Origin: Candidatus Palauibacter polyketidifaciens
GTDB lineage: Bacteria; Gemmatimonadota; Gemmatimonadetes; Palauibacterales; Palauibacteraceae
Length of the DNA: 64,000 bases
Direction of reading: 5' to 3'
NCBI RefSeq assembly: GCF_947581785.1
Contig: NZ_CANPVO010000020.1
Location: forward strand, 1-64,000
Below the pieces are notes generated by a model, which was not told the origin of the DNA, did not search any database, and was given only the letters and a program-made list of their open reading frames with translations. Below are positions 38,338 through 53,944 of the stretch, one piece after another (the stretch's first letter is position 1; each line of letters begins with the position of its first letter). Made by a program: the position numbers and the translations under genes.

Positions 38338-39458
38338 ACGCCGCAGCGGGGCCGCTCCTCGACGGCATCGGCCTGCGCCGCAGCTACGGCGGAAGGACGG
38401 CCGTCGAGGTGGACCGCATCGAACTGCGGGAGGGCGAGATGCTCGCGGTGTTCGGGCCGAACGGGGCCGGAAAGTCCACGTTGCTGCGCCTGCTCGCCAT
38501 GCTGGAGAAGCCCGACGCCGGAGAGGTCGCGTTCCGCGGCGGGTCGGGACGGCCGGCCGAGCGGGCACTCCGGGCCGCGTCCGCCGTCGTGTTTCAACGC
38601 CCCCATTTCTGGAGCGACTCCGTCGAGTACAACGTGGGGCTCGGGCTGGCCCTGCGCGGCGTGCCCCGGCCCGAAGCCCGCGCCCGCTCGCGCGCGGTGT
38701 GCGAGCAACTCGCGATCTCGCACCTGCTCGGAGCCCCGATATCGCGGCTGTCCGGAGGAGAGGCACAGCGCGTAGCGCTCGCGCGGGCGCTCGTCCTCGA
38801 CCCGGAGATCCTCTTCCTCGACGAGCCGACGGCGAATCTCGATACGGATTCGCGGCTCGACCTCCGCCACGACCTGGAGCGCGTGGCCCGGGAACGGGCG
38901 ACGAGCGTCTTTCTGATCACCCACGACCGGGGCGAGGCCTTCCACCTCGCGGATCGGGTCGCCGTGATCCGGGACGGGAAGCTGGTCCAGACGGGTACGC
39001 CGAAGGAGATCTACGAGAATCCCGCGGACGTCTACACGGCGCGCGTCACCGGGGCGGAGTTCACGATCTCCGGCGCCGTGACGCGGGCGCACGAGCGCAT
39101 GGTCACCGTCGACATCGGGGGCGCTTCGCTCGTGGCCCTCGGCGAGGCGGTCCCGGGCACGCCCGTGAAGATCGCCTATCGGCCGGAGGACCTCGTCCTC
39201 GGGCCCCCGGACGTCCCCCCCGCGGATCTGAGCACGCGCAACCTGGTCGTGGCGACGGTGGAGGAACGGCGCGACATGGGCGGGCTCGTGCGGCTGCGGC
39301 TTCGCGGTCCCGTCGAACTCGTGGCGCTCGTCACGCTCGACGCCGCGGAGGAACTCGGCGTCGACCCCGGCGTGCGCGTCGCGGTGCGGGTAAAGGCCAC
39401 GGCGTTGCACGCGTTCCCCGCCGCGCCGGTCGAACCGAGGGAATCCGGCACCTCCTAG
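38334..39458 (+). CDS. tupC: Tungstate/molybdate ABC transporter ATPase (TupC)
   Basis: The 374-residue ATPase has Walker A G-P-N-G-A-G-K-S-T, signature L-S-G-G-E-A-Q-R-V-A-L, Walker B I-L-F-L-D-E-P-T-A-N-L-D and switch histidine I-T-H-D-R. The C-terminal third (about 235-360) is a TOBE/MOP-like regulatory domain, common in ModC/WtpC proteins. It starts at a GTG overlapping the tupB stop. The stop TAG shares CTAG with the stop of the convergent plug gene. TupC proteins are often shorter, lacking the TOBE part, so this longer form may allow anion-dependent feedback. Confidence 0.9.
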   Translation: MNAAAGPLLDGIGLRRSYGGRTAVEVDRIELREGEMLAVFGPNGAGKSTLLRLLAMLEKPDAGEVAFRGGSGRPAERALRAASAVVFQRPHFWSDSVEYNVGLGLALRGVPRPEARARSRAVCEQLAISHLLGAPISRLSGGEAQRVALARALVLDPEILFLDEPTANLDTDSRLDLRHDLERVARERATSVFLITHDRGEAFHLADRVAVIRDGKLVQTGTPKEIYENPADVYTARVTGAEFTISGAVTRAHERMVTVDIGGASLVALGEAVPGTPVKIAYRPEDLVLGPPDVPPADLSTRNLVVATVEERRDMGGLVRLRLRGPVELVALVTLDAAEELGVDPGVRVAVRVKATALHAFPAAPVEPRESGTS

Positions 39459-40687
39459 CCCGAATTCCGCCGGAGCGAGGGGCCCGTCCAGATGACGATG
39501 GCTCCGCAGCGCCCCACGGCCCCGCCAAACTCGGCCGGCAACTCGCTCGCGCCCCGATAGACTTCGATCCCGGCGATCTCGGACGGCGAGACGAAGTTGT
39601 CGATCGATTCGCCGGCACCGCCGTCCCGGATCACGCGCACGCCGTCCAGGTAGACGTTCGCGTTCATGCACCCGAACTCGGCGCGGCTGCTCAGGCTGGG
39701 CACGCCACGCGTCATGCGGATGATGCAGTTGTTGTTCGCGCCTCCGCTGCACTCCGTGCGCACGCCCGGAATCCGTCCCAGGTAGTGCGTGACGCGGATC
39801 GCGCCGGCGTCCTGGATGTCGTCCCGCGTGAGGAATACTCCGGAGCCGATCGCCTCGCCGAGTTCTCGCCGGTCGTAGAACCCCTGCAACTCCAGCCGCT
39901 TCTCGCGCAGCGCCGTGACGACGATCGGCGCGAGTTCGATCGGGTCCACGCTGAGTTCGAAATCCACCTGCACGGTTCGGTCGCTCGGGAGACGCACCAA
40001 CTGGTCGAGGGGGTCGAAGGTGAGGTGGTCCACGGTCACCCGGTACATTCCCGGATCGAGTTCGGAGAACATGAAGCGGCCGCTGCCGTCGGTCATTCCC
40101 TGCCGGTCCTCCGCAAGCAGCGTGTCCGAAAGCACGACGTTCGCCGCTTCGACCGGACGGCCGGAACGCCGATCCACCACCCGACCCACGATTCGGCCGG
40201 GCACGGTGAGCAGCCTGGAGAGCGCGCCTTCCTCCACGCCCACGAGGATGTCCCATCCGGCCGGTGGGCCGGGTGCGATGCTCACTCGAGTCGGCTCCGT
40301 GCGGAAGAACGGGAACCTTGCGCTCACCGTGAGATCCTCCCGGGGCGGAAGGCCACAGAGGACGTACACGCCCTCGCTGTCCGCGTCCACGGAGACCGTG
40401 CGCTGCCGTCCTGCGCCCTCGGTCCAGCTCGCGGAGACCGTGGCGCCCGGAATGAGGATGCCCTGGAGCGTATCGCGGACGACGCCGGCGAGGCCGGTCA
40501 GGGACGGATCCATCTCCGCGGGACACGTCACGATGCCCTGGGGAGGGGTGAGGGTCAGGCTCTGAGCGGCCAGCCGGGACCCGGACGACGTCAGGATGGC
40601 GGCTCCCGCCAGGGCGAAGAACGCAACTCGGCAGACCGTTCTTCTCTGCGCCTGCGCCTCCGAACGACCCTCTCGCTGTGTTCGCAT
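39455..40687 (-). CDS. Exported carboxypeptidase-regulatory/TonB-plug protein without a barrel
   Basis: The 410-residue protein has a signal peptide (to about 46, S-R-L-A-A-Q). Two carboxypeptidase-regulatory-like sandwiches follow (about 60-140 and 160-240; G-R-V-V-D-R-R-S-G-R-P-V-E-A-A-N-V). A TonB-receptor plug-like region then runs to the end (I-E-L-A-P-I-V-V-T-A, F-Y-D-R-R-E-L, A-N-V-Y-L-D-G-V, G-R-C-G-A-I-V-I-W-T). The outer-membrane barrel that normally follows a plug is absent; the frame stops about 15 residues after the plug. ATG 40687 has GGAG 8 nt upstream. It shares the S/Q-G-F-Y-D/E-R motif and C-G-A-I-x-I/L-W ending with 45859-47274 and 47294-48700. Location is probably periplasmic; role unknown. 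Confidence 0.82.
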   Translation of the reverse strand: MRTQREGRSEAQAQRRTVCRVAFFALAGAAILTSSGSRLAAQSLTLTPPQGIVTCPAEMDPSLTGLAGVVRDTLQGILIPGATVSASWTEGAGRQRTVSVDADSEGVYVLCGLPPREDLTVSARFPFFRTEPTRVSIAPGPPAGWDILVGVEEGALSRLLTVPGRIVGRVVDRRSGRPVEAANVVLSDTLLAEDRQGMTDGSGRFMFSELDPGMYRVTVDHLTFDPLDQLVRLPSDRTVQVDFELSVDPIELAPIVVTALREKRLELQGFYDRRELGEAIGSGVFLTRDDIQDAGAIRVTHYLGRIPGVRTECSGGANNNCIIRMTRGVPSLSSRAEFGCMNANVYLDGVRVIRDGGAGESIDNFVSPSEIAGIEVYRGASELPAEFGGAVGRCGAIVIWTGPSLRRNSG

Positions 40688-40873
40688 CCGGCGGTCTCCG
40701 CCACAACGTCGACAAGCCACATGTAGAAAGTAATGCAGGCGCGTACCGCGCACACGACGCGCGCCGGCCCGGGGCCGCCCCGGGCTCCGGGGGTTTGCGA
40801 CGCGCGCCGGTATTGCGAGACACTCCCGGACGCCGTCACTCTTTCGAGGGTTCCTCGGCCGCGGAGTCTCATC

Positions 40874-41326
40874 TTGCAAATCGTGCGAAACCGGCAGGCA
40901 CGCTACGCAATCGGCGTCGCTTGCATCCTCGTTGGATTGTCCGGCTGCCTGGATCTGGGGCTCGGAATCTCCCCGACCGTGGGGAAGATGCTCTCGTCCG
41001 TGGTCAGCGAGGGATCCGCCCTGCCCGAGTTCGCGCGCGCCGCCGGGGGGCCCGGATCCATGCGAGTCTCGGGCCAGATCGTAGGCAAGCTGCGGTGCGA
41101 CTACCTGTCCCCCGATCTGCGGGAGGTCGACGGAGGGCTGGAACTGGCCATCACGATCGTGTCGGGCCGGCAGGGCTGCAACAGTCTGACGCCCTCGACG
41201 CTGTCCTACGTGGCGAACATCTACAACGTAGAGCCCGGGTCCTGGTCGATTCTCGTGGAGCACCGCTACGAAGGCGTGGACGGAAAACCCGGCGAGCGGC
41301 TGTACGACGTCGTCACGGTGGACTAG
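40874..41326 (+). CDS. Putative small lipoprotein of unknown function
   Basis: The 150-residue protein starts at a TTG (GGAG lies 7 nt upstream) or at a GTG at 40883. The signal segment A-I-G-V-A-C-I-L-V-G-L-S-G-C contains a lipobox ending at the cysteine near residue 24. The mature part has balanced composition and a C-terminal beta-rich stretch (S-W-S-I-L-V-E-H-R-Y-E-G-V), but no known domain. Two cysteines (L-R-C-D-Y and Q-G-C-N-S) could form a disulfide. It is divergent from the plug gene. Longer in-frame extensions upstream are Arg/Pro-rich and unlikely. Confidence 0.6.
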   Translation: MQIVRNRQARYAIGVACILVGLSGCLDLGLGISPTVGKMLSSVVSEGSALPEFARAAGGPGSMRVSGQIVGKLRCDYLSPDLREVDGGLELAITIVSGRQGCNSLTPSTLSYVANIYNVEPGSWSILVEHRYEGVDGKPGERLYDVVTVD

Positions 41327-41340
41327 CCGCCGGAGGCTCG

Positions 41341-41380
41341 CGCCCGCTGCGTCACTCCGGCGCCCGCTGCGTCACTCCAG
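41341..41380. repeat. 20-bp tandem duplication at the end of a small minus-strand gene
   Basis: CGCCCGCTGCGTCACTCCGG (41341-41360) is followed by a copy differing at one base (41361-41380), within which the stop of the gene at 41372 lies. Confidence 0.9.
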
Positions 41381-41641
41381 AGGCGTGGAGCGGGAATGGA
41401 GTCCCAGCAGATCCGCGTCGCTCATGTCGGCCAGGGCGCGCGTCGCCTCGGCCACGCTGCGACTCTCATGCGGCAGCCAGCGCGGCGGCGCGAACGGATC
41501 CTCGAGGCACACGAAGTAGATGCGGGCCGCGTGCGGCGTGTTCGGCTGGCCGCCCGACACGTAGGCCTCCCAGCGGACCATTCCCCCGTCGAGGAAGGTG
41601 CGGGAGAGCGCCTTCTTCGGATCCACGCTCGCGCCGCTCAC
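41372..41641 (-). CDS. Hypothetical protein, partner of the upstream small gene
   Basis: The 89-residue product starts at a GTG overlapping the upstream stop (GTGA). Sequence: polar N-terminus, then W-E-A-Y-V-S-G-G-Q-P, Y-F-V-C-L-E-D-P-F-A-P-P-R-W and a helical tail rich in Ala/Asp. No known domain is recognised. The coupling and shared orientation suggest the two proteins act together. Its coding end lies in a 20-bp tandem duplication, so its C-terminus may vary between strains. Confidence 0.6.
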   Translation of the reverse strand: MSGASVDPKKALSRTFLDGGMVRWEAYVSGGQPNTPHAARIYFVCLEDPFAPPRWLPHESRSVAEATRALADMSDADLLGLHSRSTPLE

Positions 41642-41928
41642 ACCTTCACCGAGCGCGCGAGCAGTTCGCGGAGTCCCGCCTCGTTCATCTCTGACACGGC
41701 CTGCTTCGGCACCTTGGAGATGCCCGGCGGCGCCTGGTTGTAGCGCTGCGGGATGGTGATGTCGTCCCGGTTCCGGAACATCACGAGCAGCCGGGGCGAC
41801 TGTTGCGTGGTGCCCGAGAAGATCGAGAACTCGGCCTCCCAGGTGGCCCCCGACTCGCTCGTGAACCGGGTGCGGGCGCTGTCCGCAGCCCCGTCCATCC
41901 GGAAGATCAGTTTCTTCAGAAGCGACAT
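41638..41928 (-). CDS. Hypothetical protein, first of a two-gene pair
   Basis: The 96-residue product begins M-S-L-L-K-K-L-I-F-R-M. The body is beta-rich (T-W-E-A-E-F-S-I-F-S-G; R-L-L-V-M-F-R-N-R-D) and ends in a helix-like E-M-N-E-A-G-L-R-E-L-L-A-R-S. No known domain is recognised. ATG 41928 is preferred because upstream in-frame codons are low complexity. The gene is coupled to the next one by GTGA overlap and divergent from the serine hydrolase gene. Confidence 0.62.
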   Translation of the reverse strand: MSLLKKLIFRMDGAADSARTRFTSESGATWEAEFSIFSGTTQQSPRLLVMFRNRDDITIPQRYNQAPPGISKVPKQAVSEMNEAGLRELLARSVKV

Positions 41929-42110
41929 GTGTGCGCGCGGTTGGTGCGTTTGCGTGGCTAGGCGCGGAGACACTAGGCGAGTCGGGCTCGACCCGCCAGC
42001 CTGCCGCCGGCCCGAAGGCTTCCGATGCAGGCGAGAAGCTGCGACTATGCATTGGATTCGAGCCCGGCGGAGGCTTTCCGGCCACCCGTCGGCCACGCAA
42101 GGAGAACGTC

Positions 42111-43298
42111 ATGCCGGTCCACCGTCGCTCATCCCTCGCCGCTGCGGCGCCCCGCCCGTATGCCGCGACGATCGTCTTCCTTCTCGGCTTTCTCGGCGTC
42201 CTCCTCCTTCCGTCCGCCGCGGCCGGTCAGGACGCGGACGTCATCGATGCGTTCTCGCGGCAGATCGCGGCGGATGTCGAAGCGGACGGCATCGGCGGGA
42301 TCACGGCGGCGGTCTTCAGGGGAGACCAGGTGATGTGGTCGCAGGGGTTCGGCTGGGCCGATCCGGAGAACCGCGTGCCCGCGGGAGTGCGGACGATCTA
42401 CCGAACCGGGTCGATCTCGAAGTCGGTGACGGCGATCCTGATGGCGGACCTGGTGGAGGAAGGGACGGTCGCTCTCGATGACGCCGTCGTGGACCACCTG
42501 CCCGAGGTCGCCGGCTTCGGGGATCCGCCGGCCGACATGGCGCCGATCACGCTCCGGCAACTGGCGAGCCACACCGCCGGCCTCATTCGGGAGCCTGAAC
42601 TCGAAGGCGCGGCGGCGGGGCCGATCGAGGACTGGGGATACAAGATCCTCGCTTCGATCCCCCACACCCGCTACGACACGATGCCCGGAGCCCGGTATCA
42701 GTACTCGAACATCGGGTACGGCGTGCTCGGTTACGCTCTGCAGCGGGCGGCCGGGACGTCCTTCATGGATCTCGTCGAGGACCGCCTGTTCGAACCCCTG
42801 GGGATGCGCTCTTCAACCTTCATCGCCGGCCCCGACATGTGGCGCCGGGTCGCGGTGGGGTACGTCAACTGGGACGACGGCACGGTGGACCCCGATCTCC
42901 CGGCGCTGGAACACGAGGGGCGCGGGTACAAGGTGCCGAACGGCGGCGTCTACGCGACGGTCGGAGACCTCGCGACGTTCGCGGCCGCGGTCATGGGCAT
43001 GACCGAACACGAACTCCTGGAGCCGGCGACGCGACGGGAGGTCATGACGGTCCAGACGCCCGAGGATCCCGACGCGGGGTACGGTCTCGGCTTCTCGATT
43101 CGCACGGTCGCCCTCGAGGGAGGCACCGTGCGGTTCGTCGGCCACGGCGGTTCCGTCGCCGGGTACAACATGTATCTCGTGTTCGAACCCGAGAGCGGCT
43201 ACGGCGTCGCGCTCGGCCGCAACTACAATCGCGGCGCCACCAGCCTTGGCGAGGTCGGGAACGGGCTCCTTCAGGCGCTGCTCGAGGCCGGCGGTTGA
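42111..43298 (+). CDS. Exported serine hydrolase of the beta-lactamase class C/PBP family
   Basis: The 395-residue protein has signal peptide about 17-39 (ending S-A-A-A-G-Q). The catalytic S-x-x-K is in S-I-S-K-S-V-T-A (about residue 106), the second motif Y-x-N in Y-S-N-I-G-Y-G, and an H-G-G near the C-terminus stands where K-T-G is found in beta-lactamases. This pattern fits esterase/peptidase members of PF00144 rather than a true cephalosporinase. ATG 42111 has GGAG 6 nt upstream. The stop overlaps the TTG start of the next plug gene (TTGA), so both are co-translated. Substrate could be a peptide, ester or peptidoglycan fragment. Confidence 0.88.
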   Translation: MPVHRRSSLAAAAPRPYAATIVFLLGFLGVLLLPSAAAGQDADVIDAFSRQIAADVEADGIGGITAAVFRGDQVMWSQGFGWADPENRVPAGVRTIYRTGSISKSVTAILMADLVEEGTVALDDAVVDHLPEVAGFGDPPADMAPITLRQLASHTAGLIREPELEGAAAGPIEDWGYKILASIPHTRYDTMPGARYQYSNIGYGVLGYALQRAAGTSFMDLVEDRLFEPLGMRSSTFIAGPDMWRRVAVGYVNWDDGTVDPDLPALEHEGRGYKVPNGGVYATVGDLATFAAAVMGMTEHELLEPATRREVMTVQTPEDPDAGYGLGFSIRTVALEGGTVRFVGHGGSVAGYNMYLVFEPESGYGVALGRNYNRGATSLGEVGNGLLQALLEAGG

Positions 43299-44365
43299 AC
43301 GGCTGCGGGCCGCCCCCGGGCAGGGTCGCGCCGCTCCTCACGCCGGCGGCCGCTCTCGCGCTGGCGGCGGTCGCCCTCGTGCCGTCCCCGGCCGCGGGAC
43401 AGGAAGAGGAGGAGGAGCGGGTCCTCCGCATCTGCCGGCAGCTCGGACAGGCGGAACTCGAGGTCGGGATCGAGGGCACGATCCGGGACGATGAGAGCAA
43501 GGTCCCGCTGCCGGGGGCGACGGTCGTGATCCGCTACGAGGCTGAACGCGGGCTGCCCACGCCGGAGGACGTACAGGTCGAGGCGGATGGGCGAGGGCGA
43601 TACCAGGCCTGCGGCCTCGAAGCTTTCCGGGAGATCCGGGTGCGCCCGAACTATCGGTCCCGGCGCGGGAAGGACCGCAAGGTCGAACTCGACCGGTCGA
43701 AGTTTGTCGACCTCGAGGTGGATATGGGGGACGCGGCCTTCGTCGTCCTTTCCGTCGTGGACGCCGCCGACGGGCGACCGGTGGCGGGCGCGCAGATCGA
43801 CTTCACCCCGCTGCCCGTCTCCGGGGTCACGGATTCGCTCGGACGCGCCGCGTTCCGCTCCTTGCCGCCACTCACGTACGGTCTGCGCGTCGCGCACATC
43901 GGTTACGCGCCCCTCGAGACCGAGATCAACGTCCTCACGGACCAGAACGCGGAGTTCCGCGTCGAACTCAACACCCAGGCGATCGCGCTCGCGCCGATCG
44001 AGGTGAGAGTGACGGGCCGCGATCCGTTCCTGCTCACGTCGGGGTTCTACGAGCGCCGCCAGTCCATCGACGAGGGCTACTTCGCGACCTATCCGGAGAT
44101 CGACCAGTTCATCCACCTCGGACAGCTGTTCCAGTTCAAGCGGGAACTCTCCATCCGATACCGCCGTAACCAGCTCATCCTCCTCAACGGGCGGCCGGCC
44201 AGCCGCCTCGGGTTCACCCGGAGAAACCTGGGCGAACTGAAATTCGACACCGTTCGGGGCGTCGAGGCGTACAGGTGCAGCGAGGCGCCGCCCGAGATCA
44301 TGAACCAGGTACCCAACACCCTGCTCCTGACCGACTGCAACCTCGTCGCGATCTGGACGTACTGA
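43295..44365 (+). CDS. Exported carboxypeptidase-regulatory/plug-like protein, coupled to a serine hydrolase
   Basis: The 356-residue protein starts at a TTG in the previous stop (TTGA); no ATG fits. A hydrophobic signal (about 10-33, ending P-S-P-A-A-G-Q) precedes Glu-rich sequence. Two carboxypeptidase-regulatory-like sandwiches follow (G-T-I-R-D-D-E-S-K-V-P-L-P-G-A-T-V; D-A-A-D-G-R-P-V-A-G-A-Q-I). The C-terminal portion shares I-A-L-A-P-I-E-V, S-G-F-Y-E-R-R and a final N-L-V-A-I-W-T-Y with the other plug-like proteins. The Cys that precedes the A-I-x-I-W ending in siblings is here in L-T-D-C-N. No outer-membrane barrel is present. Role unknown. Confidence 0.8.
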   Translation: MNGCGPPPGRVAPLLTPAAALALAAVALVPSPAAGQEEEEERVLRICRQLGQAELEVGIEGTIRDDESKVPLPGATVVIRYEAERGLPTPEDVQVEADGRGRYQACGLEAFREIRVRPNYRSRRGKDRKVELDRSKFVDLEVDMGDAAFVVLSVVDAADGRPVAGAQIDFTPLPVSGVTDSLGRAAFRSLPPLTYGLRVAHIGYAPLETEINVLTDQNAEFRVELNTQAIALAPIEVRVTGRDPFLLTSGFYERRQSIDEGYFATYPEIDQFIHLGQLFQFKRELSIRYRRNQLILLNGRPASRLGFTRRNLGELKFDTVRGVEAYRCSEAPPEIMNQVPNTLLLTDCNLVAIWTY

Positions 44366-44411
44366 CTCCCCACGGCCGGCTAAACCGCTTCCTCCCGACA
44401 GGACGATTCCC

Positions 44412-45839
44412 TTGAGCGACACTGGCCGGCCCGAAGGGGAAACTGCGGCTCCCCGCCGGTCCGGAGTGGGGGGGACACTGCGGGCGCTGCTGTGGGGAAC
44501 GCGCGAGGACTTCACGTCGGGAAGCCTGAACCGCGGGGTCCTGCTCCTCGCCATCCCGATGGTGCTGGAGATGGCGGGGGAGTCGCTGTTCTTCCTCGTG
44601 GACATGGCGGTCGTGAGCCGACTCGGGGCCAACGCGCTCGCGGCGATCGCGCTCACCGAAGCGATGCTGGCGGTCATCTACTCGGTCGCGGTGGGATTGG
44701 CGATGTCCACCACGGCGATGGTCGCGCGACGGACGGGCGAGAAGGACGAGCGCGGGGCGGCGACGGCCGCCGTGCAGGCAATCGCGCTGAGCGTCGGCAT
44801 AGCCGTGGTCCTCGGCCTGGCCGGTGCGCTCCTGGCCCCGTGGCTGCTGCGGGTGATGGGCGGCTCACCGGAAGTCGTGGCCCAAGGCACCATGTACGCC
44901 CGCATCCAACTGGGCGGGATGGTCGTCATCATCCTCCTCTTCGTGAACAACGCGATCTACCGGGGCGCGGGGGACCCGTCGATGGCGATGCGTTCCGTGT
45001 GGCTGGCCAACGGGATCAACATCGTGCTCGATCCCGTGCTCGTATTCGGCCTCTGGATCTTCCCCGAACTCGGACTCCCGGGCGCCGCCGTGGCCACGAC
45101 GACCGGGCGCGGGATCGGGGCTCTGTACCAGTTGTGGCACCTGTCCCGCGGCGAGCGTATCCGGGTGCGGCGGAGCGATCTCCGGGTCCGCTGGCCCGTG
45201 ATCGGCCGGCTCGCGCGCGTGTCGGTCGGCGGCGTGGGGCAGATGCTCGTGACGCAGGTCAGCTACATCATCTCGATCCGGTTCCTGTCGGAGTTCGGGA
45301 CGATCGCCCTCGCGGGCTACACCATGGCGATCCGCGTCGTCATCTTCATCATCCTCCCCGCCTGGGGCCTCGCGAACGCCGCCGCCACGCTCGTAGGCCA
45401 GAATCTCGGCGCCGGGAAGCCCGACCGCGCCGAGCGGGCCGTCTACCTCACCGGCTTCTGGAACATGCTGTTCATGGCCGTGGTGACGGTGGTTTTCGTG
45501 GCCTTCCCGGGGCCGATCCTCGCGCCGTTCGCGCCGGATCCTGAGACGCTCGACGTGGGCGTGCGCGCGCTCCGGATCATCAGCTACGGGTACATCTTCT
45601 ACGCCTGGGGCATGGTGACGATGCAGGCCTTCAACGGCGCGGGCGACACGGCGACGCCGACGTGGATCAACATCGGCGTGTTCTGGTTCTTCCAGCTGCC
45701 GGTCGCGGCGCTGCTCGCCTTCGTTATCGGGTGGGGCGAGACGGGCGTGTTCTGGTCGTTCGCGGTCGCCTACTCGCTGTCGGCCGTCGTCGGCCTCTGG
45801 ATCTTCCGGCGCGGCCGCTGGAAGCAGAAGGTGGTCTAG
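44412..45839 (+). CDS. MATE-family multidrug/sodium efflux transporter
   Basis: The 475-residue transporter has about twelve membrane segments in two six-helix halves. Family blocks are L-L-L-A-I-P-M-V-L-E-M-A-G-E-S-L-F and G-Q-N-L-G-A-G-K-P-D-R-A-E-R in the second half. The N-terminal tail is about 40 residues and polar. The start is a TTG with AGGA about 8 nt upstream. MATE proteins exchange cationic drugs or metabolites for sodium or protons at the inner membrane. It follows the plug gene by 46 bp and converges on the next one. Its substrate is unknown. Confidence 0.9.
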   Translation: MSDTGRPEGETAAPRRSGVGGTLRALLWGTREDFTSGSLNRGVLLLAIPMVLEMAGESLFFLVDMAVVSRLGANALAAIALTEAMLAVIYSVAVGLAMSTTAMVARRTGEKDERGAATAAVQAIALSVGIAVVLGLAGALLAPWLLRVMGGSPEVVAQGTMYARIQLGGMVVIILLFVNNAIYRGAGDPSMAMRSVWLANGINIVLDPVLVFGLWIFPELGLPGAAVATTTGRGIGALYQLWHLSRGERIRVRRSDLRVRWPVIGRLARVSVGGVGQMLVTQVSYIISIRFLSEFGTIALAGYTMAIRVVIFIILPAWGLANAAATLVGQNLGAGKPDRAERAVYLTGFWNMLFMAVVTVVFVAFPGPILAPFAPDPETLDVGVRALRIISYGYIFYAWGMVTMQAFNGAGDTATPTWINIGVFWFFQLPVAALLAFVIGWGETGVFWSFAVAYSLSAVVGLWIFRRGRWKQKVV

Positions 45840-45858
45840 CTTCCCTGGTAGGCCGTGC

Positions 45859-47274
45859 CTAGGCGGTGCACCGCGTCCGGCCTGCCGCTCCCTTCGACCG
45901 GAGGCCGATCACGACGCTCGCCTGCTGCCCCTCGGCAAGTTCCACCTCCCGCACTCTGAGGTCGAAACCCCCGCAGAGGGCGCTGATCCTGTGGGTTCCC
46001 GGCGACAACCCCTCCAGCGAGAATCGGCCGGCTCGATCCGTCGTGACGCGGACACCCGTGCCGGCCACCGTCACGCTGGCGGCCTCGAGCGGCCGTTCGG
46101 TGCGCTCGTTCACGACGATGCCCGTGATCCGCCCGGGTGATGTCACGGTCAGGGCGAGCCCTGCCTCGACGCCGGCCTCTGCGACGACCGTCGCGGGCTG
46201 GCCCCGGTGCGGACCGTAGGCGGCCGTCAGTTCCAGCGATACGTCGGCGGGAACCTCGCACAGCCGGTATCGTCCGAGCGAGTCCGTACGGACCACGGTT
46301 TCCACGCGTTCGAGGCCGGTGGGATCCCCGGGATTCGCGTAAGAGGCGAACACGTGCGCGGCGGGCAACCGGACTCGGGTAACCTGATCTTCCACCAACC
46401 CGTCCACCGCCACCTCGCCGGGCCGGCCGGCCGGCTCGCACAGCTCGACCTCGATCTGCGGTATCTCCGGTGTCTCCGCCGTCCAGTTGGACCACAGGAT
46501 GATCGCGCCGCAGCTCATGGAGGTCCCGTCCCAGGCAAAGAACGGTATCTTGCTACCAGGTTGGTACAACTCCGCCGCACCGAGGTCGTGCACGGAGAGT
46601 TCGTCGAGCAGCGTCGGCGGCGGCGCCTCTGGAGAACTGAAGGTTCCCGCCGGATTCAGGGAGTACGACCGGCTCGTTCCCGAGCCGTCTGCCGCTCCGA
46701 TCCGCCTCCGGTCGAGGTATACCGGAATCCTCGCGCACCGCGGGAGAGGGGCGCGCATCTGGAGGGTCGACATGAAGTCGGCGAGGCGCACGAAGCCCCG
46801 CTTGTTGGCTTCGATCCATGCCGGCTCGACGAACGCACCCCAACCCTCCTCCATCCGGTCGTAGAAGCCGGACTCCACGAGGCGGGGCGGGCGGCCTTCC
46901 ACGCCGACCTCCAGCGGCTCCAGCGGGATCGCCTGCGGGGTTAGCTGTACCTCCAGCGGTGGCGTGGCCCTGGGGCCGATTTCCAGCGGGATGGAGAGGA
47001 CTTCATAGCCGAGGCGGCGGACCCCGAGCGTGTATGTGCCCGGCACGATCTGAGCGAAGGCGAACGCGCCGTCGGGTCCCGTGATCGTCTCCCGAGCCGA
47101 ACCCGACGGATCGACCAGCCGCACCGTAGCGCCCTCGATCGGCGCCCTTGTCCCGCCCTCGGTGATGATTCCCTGGATCCCGACCGCCTCCTGGGCGCTC
47201 GCCGCGTCGGACAGGAAGGCGTTCCCCGCCACGAGGGCGACGGCCAAGGCCAGCAACGGCGTCCGCTTCGTCAT
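45859..47274 (-). CDS. Plug-like protein with multiple carboxypeptidase-regulatory domains, tandem copy B
   Basis: The 471-residue protein has signal peptide to about residue 30 (A-A-S-A-Q). The first regulatory sandwich (about 33-110) shares I-E-G-A-T-V-R-L with copy A. E-V-G-V-E-G-R-P-P-R-L-V-E-S-G-F-Y-D-R and M-E-E-G-W-G-A-F come next, then a plug-like part ending S-C-G-A-I-I-L-W-S-N-W. Two further regulatory sandwiches follow (about 290-370 and 385-465; G-I-V-V-N-E-R-T-E-R-P-L-E-A-A-S). It ends R-T-R-C-T-A. It sits 19 bp from copy A, with near-identical domain order. Both lack a beta barrel. Probably periplasmic; interaction partner unknown. Confidence 0.82.
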   Translation of the reverse strand: MTKRTPLLALAVALVAGNAFLSDAASAQEAVGIQGIITEGGTRAPIEGATVRLVDPSGSARETITGPDGAFAFAQIVPGTYTLGVRRLGYEVLSIPLEIGPRATPPLEVQLTPQAIPLEPLEVGVEGRPPRLVESGFYDRMEEGWGAFVEPAWIEANKRGFVRLADFMSTLQMRAPLPRCARIPVYLDRRRIGAADGSGTSRSYSLNPAGTFSSPEAPPPTLLDELSVHDLGAAELYQPGSKIPFFAWDGTSMSCGAIILWSNWTAETPEIPQIEVELCEPAGRPGEVAVDGLVEDQVTRVRLPAAHVFASYANPGDPTGLERVETVVRTDSLGRYRLCEVPADVSLELTAAYGPHRGQPATVVAEAGVEAGLALTVTSPGRITGIVVNERTERPLEAASVTVAGTGVRVTTDRAGRFSLEGLSPGTHRISALCGGFDLRVREVELAEGQQASVVIGLRSKGAAGRTRCTA

Positions 47275-47293
47275 TCGCAACGGCTTCTTCCAG

Positions 47294-48700
47294 CTAGACC
47301 GAGCACGTCCCCCGCCTGGCAAGATTCGTCGCGCGTAGCCGGAGGACCACGGCCACGTTCCCTCCCTCGGCCAGTTCCACCTCCTGCGCGGCACCGGTAT
47401 AGCCGGCGCACACGGCCCGGATCGTGTAGGACCCCGGTGGCAGGTCCTCGAGGGAGAATCGTCCCGCGGCGTTCGTCACCGTACGGAAGTCCGTGTCGAC
47501 GAGCACGATCCGCGCGCCCTCCATCAGCGCCGAGGTCGCCTCGTTGAGGACCATGCCGGTGATCGTCGCCGGAGACGTTACCGGCACCGTCAGCTTCAGC
47601 GCGTCGCCGTCCGCCGCCGCAAGCGCAACCAGCGGCCCGCCCGCGTGCGGGCCGTACTCCGGAGTGAGATGGATGACGGCGCCCTCCGGCAGGTCGCACA
47701 CGCGATATCGTCCGAGCGAGTCGGTGCGAACGACCGTTTCCACGCGCTCGAGGCCGTCCGGATCTTCGGGGTTCGCGTATGACGCGGACACATGCGCGGC
47801 GGGCAGCCTCACTTCGGTAACCTCGTCGTCGACGAAGCCGTCGAGCGCCACTTCTCCCGGACGGCCCTCGGGGTCGCACAGCTTCACCTCGATCGTCGGT
47901 ATCTCCGGCAGGCCCGCCGTCCAGTCGGACCAGAGGATGACCGCGCCGCAAACCGCGGTCGTGAAGGTCCAGGCGAACATCGGAATCTTCGTTCCCGGCT
48001 GGTAGACCTCAGCCGCGCCGAGATCGGACACGGACATCTCTTCGAGCAGCGGGGGAAGGCGATCCAACCCCACAGTGAAGATCCCTCCCGGATACGAATC
48101 GTCTGTCCCCCAGCCTGGCGTCGTGCCGATCGGCCTCCGGTCGAGGTACACGGGGACCTTCTCGCACCGGGACAGGGGCGCGCGGTTCTGGAGGACCCAG
48201 AGGTAGTCCTTCAGTAGTACGAAGCCGACCTTGCTGGCCTCGATCCATTCGGGCTCGAAGAACGTGCCCCAGCCTTCTTCCATTCGATCGTAGAAGCCGG
48301 ACTCCACGAGGCGGGGCGGGCGGCCTGCCACGCCGACTTCCAGCGGCTCGAGCGGGATCGCCTGCGGGGTCAGGCGGATGTCCAGTTGCGGGGGCGCCTG
48401 CGCGCCGATCTCCAGCGGCGTGCTGAGCAACTCGTATCCGAAGCGCCGCACGGCGAGCGCATATGTGCCCGGCGCAACCTGGGCGAAGGCGAACGCGCCG
48501 TCCGGTCCCGTGATGGTCTCCCGAGCCGAACCGGACGCGTCGGCCAGCCGCACGGTCGCGCCGTCGACCGGCTCGCCCGTCCCATCGTCGACGACGGTTC
48601 CGGCGACCTCCACCGCCTCCTGAGCCGTCATGCCGTCGGGAGCCATGCCCGGGATCGCCGTCAGCGCTAAGGAGATCAGGAATGCACGGGTTTGTGTCAT
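47294..48700 (-). CDS. Plug-like protein with multiple carboxypeptidase-regulatory domains, tandem copy A
   Basis: The 468-residue paralog of copy B shows the same order: signal peptide (to M-T-A-Q), regulatory sandwich, E-V-G-V-A-G-R-P-P-R-L-V-E-S-G-F-Y-D-R, plug-like part ending V-C-G-A-V-I-L-W-S-D-W, then two more sandwiches. Differences from copy B concentrate in the loop after M-E-E-G-W-G (R-L-A-D-F versus L-L-K-D-Y) and in the last sandwich. Both proteins end within three residues of a Cys (R-G-T-C-S-V here). It starts at ATG 48700, 125 bp from the next upstream gene. The pair appears to be a recent tandem duplication with diverging loops. Confidence 0.82.
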   Translation of the reverse strand: MTQTRAFLISLALTAIPGMAPDGMTAQEAVEVAGTVVDDGTGEPVDGATVRLADASGSARETITGPDGAFAFAQVAPGTYALAVRRFGYELLSTPLEIGAQAPPQLDIRLTPQAIPLEPLEVGVAGRPPRLVESGFYDRMEEGWGTFFEPEWIEASKVGFVLLKDYLWVLQNRAPLSRCEKVPVYLDRRPIGTTPGWGTDDSYPGGIFTVGLDRLPPLLEEMSVSDLGAAEVYQPGTKIPMFAWTFTTAVCGAVILWSDWTAGLPEIPTIEVKLCDPEGRPGEVALDGFVDDEVTEVRLPAAHVSASYANPEDPDGLERVETVVRTDSLGRYRVCDLPEGAVIHLTPEYGPHAGGPLVALAAADGDALKLTVPVTSPATITGMVLNEATSALMEGARIVLVDTDFRTVTNAAGRFSLEDLPPGSYTIRAVCAGYTGAAQEVELAEGGNVAVVLRLRATNLARRGTCSV

Positions 48701-48825
48701 GTGAAACGTCCGCGAGGTTGAATGGCCCGGATCCCGGACCGGGAGAATAGACCATGGCACCGCCCGTGAGTAGACGGGGCAACCCGCGTTCGCGTCACTT
48801 TCGAGGATTCGACCGGGCGCTGGCT

Positions 48826-50145
48826 CTACGGAGTCCGGTTCTCCGTCAGTGGGGCATCCGGGGCCAGTTGGACGACGCGCACGATCGGGTAACCGAGGTC
48901 GTGCGTGTCCACGTAGGCCATGAGGCCGTCCGGGCCGAACGCGTCCGGGACTCGGAGTCCTCCCGGTTGGATCGTGCCCAGGTAGCGGGCGTCGGGCGTC
49001 ACAATGTCGATCGGCCCTTCCTCGTTGGGGAGCGGGGTCCGAACCACCCACAAGCGATCGTCGAAGTCCACCGCCAAGGCCTCGATTGCGGGGATGACCT
49101 CGGCGAACGTCATCTCTCCGATGCGGGCCCGGAGAGCCTCCTGCAACTGGCTCGCGAAGTCGTCCGGCATGCGGATGTCCGGGCGCCCCGCGAGGGAAAG
49201 GGTCGTCGGGCTCCGATTCCCCTCCAGCTCGGCCAGCCGACGCTCCCGCTCCGCACTCCGCACGGTGTTCGTCACCGGGGTCGGCGTGAGCGGCCGTTCC
49301 AGAACCTCACTCACGGCACCGTCCTCGCCGATCAGCCTGATCCGGTATCCCGAGGAGTCGACGACGGCGATTCGCCCGTCCGATAGCGCGGCGAAATGCA
49401 GCCCCGCGTCGAACGCCCTCACGGGGCTGAGATTGAAGGAAAAGCTGCCACCGCTGGCTTCCGCCGCGTCTCCGGTGGGCGGCGGCGGCTCCCAGGCCGT
49501 GTAGAACGGCTCGCGAGTTCCGTCCGTCCGGTAGCGGACGAGGGGGCGTCCGGGTGCGTCTCCCGTGCCGCCGACGGAGCTGCTCACCGACATGGCCTCC
49601 GCCGTTCCACTCACCACGAACTCGCGGGCGGTGATGATGCTCCCGTCCGAGAGCCACGCGCCGACGCGCCTGGGCGCGCCCTGCTTCGGATCGAAGGGCG
49701 CCGATTCCGCGTATTCGCCCTCCGGCGTGAAGAACTGGATTCCGTTGCGACCCCCGTCGAACACGGCGAGACGACCATCGGCGAGCAGGGATATCGATTC
49801 GGGATCGGTCAGTTCGCCGGGGCCTTCGCCCTGCCGGGAGATGGTTCGAAGGTAGACCCCGTCCCGGTCGAACACGACGACGTGCCCGGCCTGTTCGTCC
49901 AGTATGAAGAGGTCGCCCGCCTCGTTGAAGATCAGGTCGGCGATGGACCCGAAGACTTCCCAGTCCTCCCCATCCAGGGCCCCGGCGATCCAGCGGGATT
50001 CATGCGCCGGAGCGATCGTAAAGTCGGGACCGTCGATGACCCCCGACCCGCCAACCGGCGTCCCACCGCCGCCATCGCCCCCGCACGCGGCCAGGAGCCA
50101 GAGGCCCGCACCAAACAGGGAATGACGCCGGATTGCGTGGATCAT
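48826..50145 (-). CDS. Propeller-type lipoprotein outside the main array
   Basis: The 439-residue lipoprotein has lipobox L-W-L-L-A-A-C-G-G and a Gly-rich tether. Blades show S-R-Q-G-E-G-P-G-E-L, D-G-R-L-A-V-F-D-G-G and D-S-S-G-Y-R-I-R-L-I. It shares the G-x-G-P-G-E motif with the seven array members but lacks both D-S-A-G-V and the E-Y-V terminus, ending V-V-Q-L-A-P-D-A-P. It follows the M56 genes (93 bp) and precedes the plug pair on the same strand, so the region could be a second envelope cluster. No ligand site is recognised. Confidence 0.82.
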   Translation of the reverse strand: MIHAIRRHSLFGAGLWLLAACGGDGGGGTPVGGSGVIDGPDFTIAPAHESRWIAGALDGEDWEVFGSIADLIFNEAGDLFILDEQAGHVVVFDRDGVYLRTISRQGEGPGELTDPESISLLADGRLAVFDGGRNGIQFFTPEGEYAESAPFDPKQGAPRRVGAWLSDGSIITAREFVVSGTAEAMSVSSSVGGTGDAPGRPLVRYRTDGTREPFYTAWEPPPPTGDAAEASGGSFSFNLSPVRAFDAGLHFAALSDGRIAVVDSSGYRIRLIGEDGAVSEVLERPLTPTPVTNTVRSAERERRLAELEGNRSPTTLSLAGRPDIRMPDDFASQLQEALRARIGEMTFAEVIPAIEALAVDFDDRLWVVRTPLPNEEGPIDIVTPDARYLGTIQPGGLRVPDAFGPDGLMAYVDTHDLGYPIVRVVQLAPDAPLTENRTP

Positions 50146-50239: not shown

Positions 50240-51568
50240 CTAGATCACCTGGAAGGTCACCCACTGGGAGACCCAGACGGCGGTCGGTTCACCCTGGTTG
50301 CTCGCGGGGCGGAACCGCATCTGCCGGGCGACTTCCATGGCGGCGCGGTCCAGCACGTCGTTGCCGCTGCTCGTCTTGATCTCCTGGTTGGCAACGGCGC
50401 CGGACAGGTCGACGTACAGCCACATCTCGACCCGGCCGCCGGTACCCGCATTCATCAGGTCGCGCGGATAGGCCCTCTGCAGAACCTGCTGGATCTCGCC
50501 CCCGTTCTGAAGAACCGGGGGCGTGTCGTACGCGACGGAGGTCGTCCGCTCCGCCTGCGCGGCCCTCTCGGCCAGGAGGGCCAGCGGGTTCTCCTCGATA
50601 GGGAGACCCCGGTCGGCATCGGCTTCGGGCGCGGGAGCATCCATCGACGCCTCGGGCTGCGGGGTGCCCAGCACGAGAATGAGGGCGAGCGCCGCCACGC
50701 CGGAAGCGCCCAGGGTTCTCGGAATGCGGAGCCGGGCCAGTGGCTCGGTCATGCGGCGCAGCCGCTTCTCCACGGCCGGCTTGCGTTCGGCGAAGGCGGC
50801 CGCGGCCAGCAGTGGCGCGGAGACACGACCTCCCACCGTGATGAGGGCATCCGCGTAGTCGCGCGGGGACTCTCCCCGTTCCAGCACGCGTCGGTCGCAG
50901 TCGAACTCGATCGCCAGCCGCAGCCGCGATGCCTGCCACCACAGGAACACGTTCCACGGCATCAGCACGAGGGCCGCGACCGCCGCGGCGAAGAGACGGT
51001 GGTCACCGGCGCATTGGTGTTCGTGCTCGTGCAGGAAGACCAGGCGCAACAGCCGGTCTTCGAGTTCGGGGATCCACCTCGGCATCACGACGACCGAGCG
51101 CCGGATTCCGACCACGGCCGGGCCCCGGTCATCCGCGATCATGACCCGCGATCCGAGGACGCAACCCGGCGTCCACGTCCGCATTTCCGACCGCAGGCGC
51201 CCGTACGCCCGCCCGAGATGGAGGAGCATCCCCACCGCGAGCAACACCCAGACCCCACCCGCGAGGACACTCATCGCGCCGGTATCGAACCACGCCGTGG
51301 GCACCGCCTCGAGCGCAGCGGGCGCGGAGGCCACGACCACCGGCTCGCTCAACCACACGAGAGGAGCCCAGGGTGCCGCGCCGATGCCCGGGAAGAGGCC
51401 GGGAGCGAGAAACGCCGCGAACGGGAGCGTCACGGAGCCGACGATCGCCGCGAACCAGCCCCAGCGCACGGGCTTCCGGAAGTGACCCAGAGCCCGCTCG
51501 GTCGCGAATGCGGCCAGGGCGAGGAGTCCCGAAATCAACAGGCAGTATCCGATCCAGGCGATGACCAT
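50240..51568 (-). CDS. M56 (BlaR1-like) membrane metallopeptidase with TonB C-terminal domain
   Basis: The 442-residue protein has about four membrane segments in its first 125 residues and a cytosolic-type zinc peptidase with H-E-H-E-H at 180-184, matching HExxH. L-R-L-A-I-E-F-D-C-D-R-R-V-L is the downstream glutamate/Asp block. A further membrane segment (about 288-305) leads to a TonB-C-like domain (about 365-442; G-G-R-V-E-M-W-L-Y-V-D-L-S-G). M56 proteins sense envelope signals and cleave BlaI-type repressors; here TonB-C replaces the beta-lactam sensor. Its ATG is preceded by GAAGGAG, which is the remaining tip of a lost blaI copy. It is the distal and shorter of two paralogs. Confidence 0.88.
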   Translation of the reverse strand: MVIAWIGYCLLISGLLALAAFATERALGHFRKPVRWGWFAAIVGSVTLPFAAFLAPGLFPGIGAAPWAPLVWLSEPVVVASAPAALEAVPTAWFDTGAMSVLAGGVWVLLAVGMLLHLGRAYGRLRSEMRTWTPGCVLGSRVMIADDRGPAVVGIRRSVVVMPRWIPELEDRLLRLVFLHEHEHQCAGDHRLFAAAVAALVLMPWNVFLWWQASRLRLAIEFDCDRRVLERGESPRDYADALITVGGRVSAPLLAAAAFAERKPAVEKRLRRMTEPLARLRIPRTLGASGVAALALILVLGTPQPEASMDAPAPEADADRGLPIEENPLALLAERAAQAERTTSVAYDTPPVLQNGGEIQQVLQRAYPRDLMNAGTGGRVEMWLYVDLSGAVANQEIKTSSGNDVLDRAAMEVARQMRFRPASNQGEPTAVWVSQWVTFQVI

Positions 51569-51621: not shown

Positions 51622-53568
51622 CTACCGGCCGCCAGCCCCCGCCCTCTCTTTCGTCGTGATTTCGATCACGCCGTGTTGGGCCTTCTCCCCGTACGTCTCT
51701 GTGGCACGCTCACCTCTCACGATCGTGACATGATCGATGTCGAGTGTGCCGAACTCCGACAGCCCCGCAGCGTCGGAAATCACGCCATCGATGACGATCA
51801 GCGGATCGGGCATGTTCCCCGAACGGGGCACGATCGCGAAGTCCAGCAAGCCATCCCCGTCGACATCGTCGAGGACCGCCGTGCGAACGATGTCTTCGAT
51901 CTCGAGGCCACGGTCGGTAGCGGGCGGCGTTCGGGAGGGGGCTCCTTCCCTCATGCGGCTCATCAGGAAGGATGGGCGGTCAGCCGCCGGAGACTCGCTG
52001 TCCGCAGCGCCGTCCTTCGTCGTGATCTCGATCACGCCGTTCGTGGCGCGCTCGCCGTACAACTCGATGGCCGCGCTCCCCTTGATGACCTCGACGTGGT
52101 CGATATCGAGGGCCCGGAGGTCTGCCATGCTCGTGCCCTCGGATTGAATGACGCCGTCGACGATGACGAGCGGAGCATCCTCATCGGTTGGGGAAGAACT
52201 CCGGGCGGGGGCGGTGTCCGCATCGCTCGCCATCTGGAAGGTGATCCACTGGGCAATCCAGACGTCGGTCGGCTGGTCGCGGTTCATCGCGGGCTCGAAG
52301 CGCATCGTCGCGACGACATCCGCGGCGGCGGCGTCCAGGTCGCTGTTGCCGCTGCTCGTCTTGAGTTCCGTGTTGCGAACCATGCCGGACGTGTCGACGT
52401 ACAGCCACATCTCGACCCGCCCGCCGATGCCCGCTGCCTTCAGGTTCGACGGGTAGGCTTGAACCAGCGCGTTGGATACTTCCGCCGCGTTCTGAAGCAC
52501 CGGAGGCCTGTCGAACGCGATGAAGGACGGCCGGTCGCCGCGCCCGACGGCCTCCTCGTCGGGCACCACCGGGGGCACCCAGTCACTGGCTTCGGAGGGC
52601 GGAGTCACTGTCGCGGTGGGCGCTTCCGGCGCGTTCATGCCGCTCTCGGGCCCGGGGCAGCCGAGTACGAAGAGGACGGCGACCATGGCCAGCCCCGAGG
52701 CGCCGAGCGTGCGGAACAGGCGCATGTTGGCGGGCGGCTCGGTCATGCGGCGCAGGCGTCGCTCCACGGCCGGCTTGCGTTCGGCGAAGGCGGCAGCGGC
52801 GAGCAGCGACCCGGAGACGCGGCTTCCCACCGTGATGAGGGCGTCCGCGTAGTCGCGCGGCGACTCTCCCCGACCGAGCACGCGACGGTCGCAGTCGAAC
52901 TCGATCGCGAGCCGCAGCCGGGACACCTGCCACCACGCGACCGGGTTCCAAGGCATCAGGACGAGCGCCGTAACCGCCGCCGCGAAGAGCCGATGGTCGC
53001 CGGCGCGCTGATGCTCCCGCTCGTGGAGGAAGACGAGGCGGAGCAGTCTGTCGTCGAGTTCGGGGATCCACTTCGGCATCACGACGACCGAGCGCCGGAT
53101 CCCGACGACGGCCGGCCCCCGCTCGTCGGAGAACATGACCGGCGACCCCGCCACGCGGCCCGGCCGCCACGTCCGCATCTCCGACCGCAGCCGGCCGTAG
53201 ACGCGTCCGACGTAGCCGATCATGGCAGCGGCCATGGCCAGCCAGCCCCACCCCAGCACCGCACCCACGGCCACCGCATCGAAACCTCCACCAGCCGCCG
53301 CGGCCGTTGCGGGCAGCTCCGCAGCCGTGGTTGCGGCCGGCAGACCGCTCAACCCGACGCCCGGCGCGACGGACGACACCCCGAAGCCGGGAAGGAGTCC
53401 GGGCGCGAAGAAGGCGACGACGGGCACCGTCACGGATCCGACGATCGCCGCGAACCACGCCCAGCGCACGGGCGTCCGGAAGTGACCCAGCGCCCGCTCC
53501 GAGGCGAAGGCGGCCAGGGCGAGGAGTCCCGAAATCAACAGGCAGTATCCGATCCAGGCGATGACCAT
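51622..53568 (-). CDS. M56 metallopeptidase-TonB-C fusion extended by two plug-like repeats
   Basis: The 648-residue paralog of the next gene has membrane segments in the first 125 residues, H-E-R-E-H at 182-186, F-D-C-D-R-R-V-L at 224-231, a membrane segment at 290-304 ending in a lone lipobox-like F-V-L-G-C, and a TonB-C domain at about 365-447. Two repeats then follow, 466-518 and 589-641. Each reads P-L-V/I-I-D-G-V-I ... L-D-I-D-H-V-x-I-x-K/R-G ... Y-G-E-x-A-x-x-G-V-I-E-I-T-T-K, the turn signature of TonB-receptor plugs. ATG 53568 lies 4 bp past the repressor stop. It should sense or relay envelope signals to the BlaI-type repressor encoded upstream. Confidence 0.87.
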   Translation of the reverse strand: MVIAWIGYCLLISGLLALAAFASERALGHFRTPVRWAWFAAIVGSVTVPVVAFFAPGLLPGFGVSSVAPGVGLSGLPAATTAAELPATAAAAGGGFDAVAVGAVLGWGWLAMAAAMIGYVGRVYGRLRSEMRTWRPGRVAGSPVMFSDERGPAVVGIRRSVVVMPKWIPELDDRLLRLVFLHEREHQRAGDHRLFAAAVTALVLMPWNPVAWWQVSRLRLAIEFDCDRRVLGRGESPRDYADALITVGSRVSGSLLAAAAFAERKPAVERRLRRMTEPPANMRLFRTLGASGLAMVAVLFVLGCPGPESGMNAPEAPTATVTPPSEASDWVPPVVPDEEAVGRGDRPSFIAFDRPPVLQNAAEVSNALVQAYPSNLKAAGIGGRVEMWLYVDTSGMVRNTELKTSSGNSDLDAAAADVVATMRFEPAMNRDQPTDVWIAQWITFQMASDADTAPARSSSPTDEDAPLVIVDGVIQSEGTSMADLRALDIDHVEVIKGSAAIELYGERATNGVIEITTKDGAADSESPAADRPSFLMSRMREGAPSRTPPATDRGLEIEDIVRTAVLDDVDGDGLLDFAIVPRSGNMPDPLIVIDGVISDAAGLSEFGTLDIDHVTIVRGERATETYGEKAQHGVIEITTKERAGAGGR

Positions 53569-53572
53569 GTCC

Positions 53573-53944
53573 CTACTCCTTCGAGCTGAGGCGTTCGTCC
53601 ACCATGCCGCGCAGGTTCTCGAGGTCCTCCTTCGAGAGCGCACGGTCGGAGACGAGGTGCGTGAGCAGCAGTTCGGGCGACCCCTGGAACATCTTCTGAA
53701 CCAGCCGGCGCACCGCGCTCGCGCCGGCGCAGTCGCGCCCCACGAGCGTGTGATAGCGGTAGGCCTTCCCCTCCTGGGTGTGCCCCACGTACCCCTTCTC
53801 CTCCAGCGTCCGGAGGATCGTGAGCACGGTGGTGTAGGCCAGCTCGTCGCCGAGGCGTTCCTGCACCTCCGCGACGGTCGAGGCCCCTCTCTCCCACAGC
53901 ACCGCCATGAGGTCGAGTTCCCGCGTCGTGAACTTGATCTCCAC
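53573..53944 (-). CDS. BlaI/MecI-family repressor
   Basis: The 123-residue winged-helix repressor has the N-terminal T-T-R-E-L-D-L-M-A-V-L-W-E-R-G and Y-T-T-V-L-T-I-L-R-T-L-E-E-K-G-Y-V recognition helices typical of BlaI/MecI/CopY, and a C-terminal dimerisation helix. BlaI proteins dimerise on inverted repeats and are cleaved or displaced when an M56 partner is activated. It precedes the two M56 genes; its stop lies 4 bp before the second start and its 3' end supplies that gene's ribosome site. It probably represses the operon from the inverted repeat at 54072-54085. Confidence 0.92.
   Translation of the reverse strand: MEIKFTTRELDLMAVLWERGASTVAEVQERLGDELAYTTVLTILRTLEEKGYVGHTQEGKAYRYHTLVGRDCAGASAVRRLVQKMFQGSPELLLTHLVSDRALSKEDLENLRGMVDERLSSKE

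Follow-up and report, generated by a model that had tools for sequence, protein, structure and literature searches.

The plug is usually treated as part of a barrel receptor. In Oar-type transporters such as Oar of Myxococcus xanthus (PF13620 + PF07715 + barrel), a sandwich domain is followed by a TonB box and then by the plug. SusC/RagA receptors (TIGR04056, e.g. Bt1763) show a comparable arrangement, in which a transthyretin-like N-terminal extension, with 5aq0 as its closest fold, is separated from the plug by a flexible Ton box (PMC7782687). It was shown in a two-hybrid assay that a fragment of Oar containing the sandwich and the plug, without the barrel, binds TonB1 (PMC6434023). A third system of interest is BlaR1/BlaI (Peptidase_M56 + Penicillinase_R), since both of its parts are encoded by genes neighbouring two of the proteins described here. 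Database annotation would presumably name such proteins after the Plug or the carboxypeptidase regulatory-like domain. A literature search found no paper on barrel-less plugs and no described family uniting such proteins, and TonB and plugs are not mentioned in the Palauibacterales paper.

The present study deals with four proteins, A to D, encoded in a stretch of 64,000 nt from Candidatus Palauibacter polyketidifaciens (Gemmatimonadota; GCF_947581785.1, NZ_CANPVO010000020.1, positions 1-64,000), the whole of which is called the window. They belong to a multi-copy exported family which carries the front half of a SusC/Oar-type receptor, has no barrel and forms one lineage. The proteins and their modules are as follows.

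39455..40687, minus strand: protein A; signal peptide, sandwich regX, sandwich reg, TonB-box-like linker, plug (CarboxypepD_reg 93.5 bits, Plug 42.4 bits)
39485..39931, minus strand: TonB-box-like APIVVTA (39911-39931), GFYDR (39869-39883) and plug module of A
43295..44365, plus strand: protein B; architecture of A, divergent plug without YLDG, stop exactly at the plug end (TTG start inferred)
43991..44362, plus strand: linker APIEVRV, GFYER and degenerate plug module of B (97.9% to the family profile)
45859..47274, minus strand: protein C; signal peptide, reg, plug module, regX, reg, continuing past the plug
46489..46920, minus strand: linker EPLEVGV, GFYDR and plug module of C
47294..48700, minus strand: protein D; shares 61% identity with its paralog C and lies 20 bp upstream of it on the same strand
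47927..48349, minus strand: linker EPLEVGV, GFYDR and plug module of D

C and D are probably one operon because of their spacing and common strand. The region 39455-48700 also contains an unrelated beta-lactamase-fold hydrolase, a MATE pump and two unannotated ORFs. The order of sandwich, TonB-box-like linker and plug is that of SusC and Oar, which fits the proposal of the sequence-only reading that these proteins mimic the SusC plug. Unlike Oar, the family lacks the barrel and has extra sandwiches, a GFYxR insert and a conserved cysteine pair. Unlike SusC/RagA, it has neither barrel nor SusD, and the full TIGR04056 model gives the window proteins 29-38 bits, from the sandwich part only, far under the cut-off of 368.

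Regulatory sandwiches had been claimed for all four proteins, and PF13620/PF13715 matches were indeed found above the Pfam cut-off in each of them, which places A-D among the CarboxypepD_reg/transthyretin-like proteins; the sandwich of B in addition resembles the transthyretin-like domain 5aq0 (Foldseek, TM 0.87). The G-F-Y-[DE]-R motif is likewise present in all four, and all four ORFs have signal-peptide-like N-termini as judged by eye. A common ending near A-I/V-x-I/L-W holds for two of the four: A and B are built as sandwich-sandwich-plug and have 9 and 0 residues after this motif, but C and D (sandwich-plug-sandwich-sandwich) run on for 209 and 210 residues, which form two sandwiches. Similarly, the V-Y-L-D-G/R turn is found in A, C and D but not in B, which reads L-I-L-L-N-G-R. 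Thus, the picture of exported sandwich proteins with a plug module and no barrel stood, and the ending in C/D and the turn in B did not. Conservation of the motifs across the family rules out chance. Because of the differing domain order, whole-protein MAFFT alignment of A-D placed A/B against the C-terminal half of C/D, and the modules were aligned instead.

Identity of the module as a plug was assessed at the level of profiles. PF07715 recognises A directly, above the Pfam Plug threshold (42.4 bits), as it does 15 of 15 diverse family members; B, C and D are reached through the family profile as an intermediate, so that their plug identity, claimed earlier for all four alike, is indirect. 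All 30 matches of the family profile against the PDB were TonB-dependent receptors (BtuB, Cir, FoxA, FhuA, FecA and others), and hhalign matched the family profile to nine receptor plugs of the same genome at 97.6%. Against the family profile B scored 97.9% and C/D 98.7%, with a sandwich control at no more than 0.2%, and these matches identify B and C/D as plugs that have diverged, as far as profile homology can tell. A direct hhalign comparison of the C/D plugs with receptor plugs gave no match (E 0.04). AlphaFold models of D (pLDDT 81, pTM 0.40) and B (pLDDT 70, pTM 0.37), in which the placement of the domains is unsure, show mixed strand-helix elements across the plug module. Foldseek with the whole-chain models of D and B retrieved sandwich, pilin and TTR domains only and no plug, so that independent support from fold comparison was not obtained for the plug; the predicted resemblance was borne out at the level of sequence profiles and of secondary-structure prediction, but not by this search. 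In place of the 22-strand barrel of TonB-dependent receptors, the plug is followed by 0-9 residues in A and B and by two sandwiches in C and D.

Absence of the barrel could in principle mean that A-D are truncated relics, that is, receptors with recent barrel loss or assembly artefacts. The clear homology to receptor plugs would agree with this, as would the copy number of C/D, which differs among genomes, and a copy adjoining the D/C position in genome G002 (L048, 7898-9395) that is split over two frames. This split reflects either damage to the copy or an error in sequencing. The ends of the proteins, on the other hand, are of the same kinds in many genomes: members read at full length stop 0-30 residues after the plug, or carry a C/D-type extension, or continue into a second plug. 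A further 38 matches came from eight complete genomes. In 36 of them no more than 41 residues follow the plug (one of these ends at masked bases), and in one 133 residues follow; the weakest match proved to be a regular SusC-like receptor, whose plug is followed by 729 residues. Clear receptors of the genome containing the window have 439-818 aa in this position. Homologs with full barrels were looked for and none was found, and A-D themselves as well as the homologs read at full length lack an outer-membrane barrel, as had been stated. Median dN/dS was 0.17 for B, 0.21 for both A and C and 0.23 for D, which indicates purifying selection on the four genes; in addition, the genes around A-D have the same order in 11 Palauibacter genomes. 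In a plug tree, which has few columns and receptor plugs from this genome only, 68 family modules were split from 16 receptor plugs on one branch (SH-aLRT 99.5). Taken together, the separate branch, the low dN/dS, the conserved ends and the conserved gene order led us to reject relics, an explanation to which we give almost no weight. The description as barrel-less plugs with regulatory domains was thus upheld by profile homology, the missing barrels, purifying selection and a branch apart from receptors.

In the same tree C, D and a third paralog cluster with the first plug of two-plug proteins and the second plug of the latter falls with A, which indicates that fusion or loss links the architectures. 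Two-plug members (L029, L058, L059) read sandwich-plug-sandwich-sandwich-plug, and C/D resemble them minus the last plug.

The family is widely distributed in Gemmatimonadota. The module profile matched 233 of 297 sampled genomes and 88 of 119 genera at E<=1e-8; inspection covered part of the listed matches, the weakest excepted, so that receptor plugs may underlie a few of the 233. Within the genus Palauibacter there are 3-25 module copies per genome. A contig scan with two peptide patterns returned matches from Gemmatimonadota only, including Ca. Palauibacter species in the same subfamily, and tblastn against plasmids gave a single match, in Gemmatirosa, which is likewise a member of Gemmatimonadota. 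Tandem arrays of three to six family genes were seen at L122:954-17312 (G045) and at L056, L062, L121 and L130. Apparently this is an old, conserved family rather than a set of broken receptors.

What sets the family plugs apart from those of the genome's receptors is a pair of cysteines. Cysteine at the start of the last strand is present in all 136 distinct family modules, and a second one just before the Y-L-D-G strand in 124; the remaining 12 are all orthologs of B and have a cysteine elsewhere. None of 18 receptor plugs of the same genome has cysteine at the conserved sites. The GFYxR-type insert between linker and plug is similarly absent from the receptor plugs of this genome. When the family is defined by the GFYxR-like insert, a cysteine-pair plug, an end at or near C-G-x-[IV]-x-x-W and no barrel, A shows every feature, C and D show them with a C-terminal extension, and B shows them with the second cysteine moved. 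The conservation of the family cysteines suggests that they form a disulfide, and the genome encodes DsbA-like proteins. As cited in PMC11658791, the isolated plug of FepA is unfolded; a disulfide staple would therefore be an attractive, if unproven, reason for the cysteine pair.

The sequence-only reading had offered blocking or regulation of receptors, or a role as adapters, and these are possible functions of A-D. One form of the former is a plug in trans, in which the separate plug would dock into a receptor barrel, either plug-less or with its own plug displaced, and close or re-gate it. In favour of such docking, family members preserve nearly all of the plug up to the final strand and come to an end where plug and barrel would join. 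Nevertheless, the cysteine pair and the insert are foreign to the receptor plugs of the genome, about 210 residues follow the plug in C and D, and most family genes do not adjoin receptor genes. No plug-less barrel was found in the genome either, where the sole clear PF00593 match lacking a plug is interrupted by the end of its contig. We consider docking of this kind quite improbable. Neither a receptor nor a propeller emerged as a fixed partner, so receptor blocking is not singled out among the proposed roles.

Genes next to D and C bear on the question of partners. The features upstream of D are listed below.

48826..50145, minus strand: 6-bladed beta-propeller protein (DUF5128), upstream of D on the same strand
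50240..51568, minus strand: BlaR1-type M56 membrane peptidase with TonB C-terminal domain (M56 55 bits, TonB_C 54 bits)
51622..53568, minus strand: M56 peptidase with TonB C-terminal domain and C-terminal plug-like segments, 5' end approximate (M56 63, TonB_C 51, Plug 41.5 bits)
53573..53944, minus strand: BlaI/MecI-type repressor (Penicillinase_R, 106 bits), heading the M56-M56-propeller-D-C run

Two of the six TonB_C domains of the genome thus lie upstream of D/C, behind the BlaI repressor, and the order of BlaI, both M56-TonB_C genes and D/C is kept in the Palauibacter regions reaching that far. Unlike in BlaR1/BlaI systems, the M56 proteins here end in TonB_C and D/C lie in the same run; a functional link is suggested by position. 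The plug-like segments of 51622-53568 (V-I-V-D-G-V ... Y-G-E-R-A-T-N-G-V-I-E-I-T-T-K, repeated) make it another type of plug lacking a barrel, here joined to a sensor peptidase. Elsewhere in this genome, a 206-aa frame (L116, C6:138027-138248) contains a half-plug of similar kind (LIIIDGV ... LLYGPRARGGAIDIQTK) and no barrel, and in a 629-aa frame (L104, C47:56019-56264) some 450 residues follow a plug-like stretch.

Upstream of family members of this genome, DUF5128 genes were seen either directly adjoining or one gene away at L109:6653-9094, at L114:7633-11661 and in the window at 47294-50145. A DUF5128 propeller was found within 3 kb of four of the eight family loci of this genome, where 0.35 would be expected (p about 1e-4, uniform null). 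This favours the view that A-D are plain periplasmic or surface binding or scaffold proteins, which reuse the plug fold without TonB and are paired with beta-propellers in Palauibacter. The sandwich repeats resemble pilin and S-layer modules, in line with such a role, and weak binding of the siderophore by the isolated plug of FepA is described in PMC11658791. However, the link with propellers is weak elsewhere (3 of 57 loci, 1.3 expected), the family is also present in genomes with few or no propellers, and the strict order from TonB box to plug would be left without explanation. The propeller was rejected as a general partner, being significant in this genome only, and a scaffold role in general appears to us rather unlikely. 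Most family members stand alone in unrelated neighbourhoods and thus indicate no partner; a fixed neighbour gene was looked for at the other family loci and none was found.

The linker between sandwich and plug may point to a different function. P-[LI]-x-V is nearly invariant in the family linker, and [AE]-P-[LI]-x-V falls in the low-confidence linker of both AlphaFold models (D 92-96, B 198-202), a placement comparable to that of the flexible Ton box in SusC. In front of the plug A reads APIVVTA; B, C and D have only [PD]-[LI]-x-V, possibly an edge strand of the sandwich, and a clear TonB-box motif is confined to A-like members. The genome encodes TonB, TonB_C, ExbB and M56-TonB_C proteins, with six TonB_C proteins in all. 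Binding to TonB-type domains is favoured by the order shared with SusC and Oar, the motif in a flexible linker, the binding of the Oar fragment to TonB1 and the TonB_C genes, some of which are neighbours of D/C. The family proteins would stay in the periplasm, where the disulfide could make folding of the plug possible in the absence of a barrel, and TonB C-terminal domains could be bound by the TonB-box-like strand. As soluble TonB-binding adaptors or competitors they may tune TonB-dependent uptake; alternatively, C/D could be ligands of the adjoining BlaI and M56-TonB_C sensor proteins. We tentatively prefer this reading, of periplasmic, disulfide-stapled barrel-less plugs acting through TonB-type domains or, for C/D, as ligands of the M56-TonB_C sensors, although its chance of being right may fall somewhat short of even. 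More speculative, and in our opinion doubtful, is its extension to the whole phylum, whereby soluble stapled plugs would bind periplasmic TonB-type domains and govern the sharing of the TonB motor, with C/D signalling through M56-TonB_C and BlaI.

Conserved, multi-copy exported plugs with a cysteine pair of their own suggest that the plug has evolved into a free-standing module. If the binding to TonB is true, these proteins would represent naturally occurring, soluble regulators of the TonB motor, and soluble TonB-binding plugs would add a regulatory layer of TonB-dependent transport that was not described before. Biophysical work would also gain a stable plug from the family. For a widespread and hardly cultured phylum like Gemmatimonadota, it makes up a sizeable unexplained share of the exported proteome.
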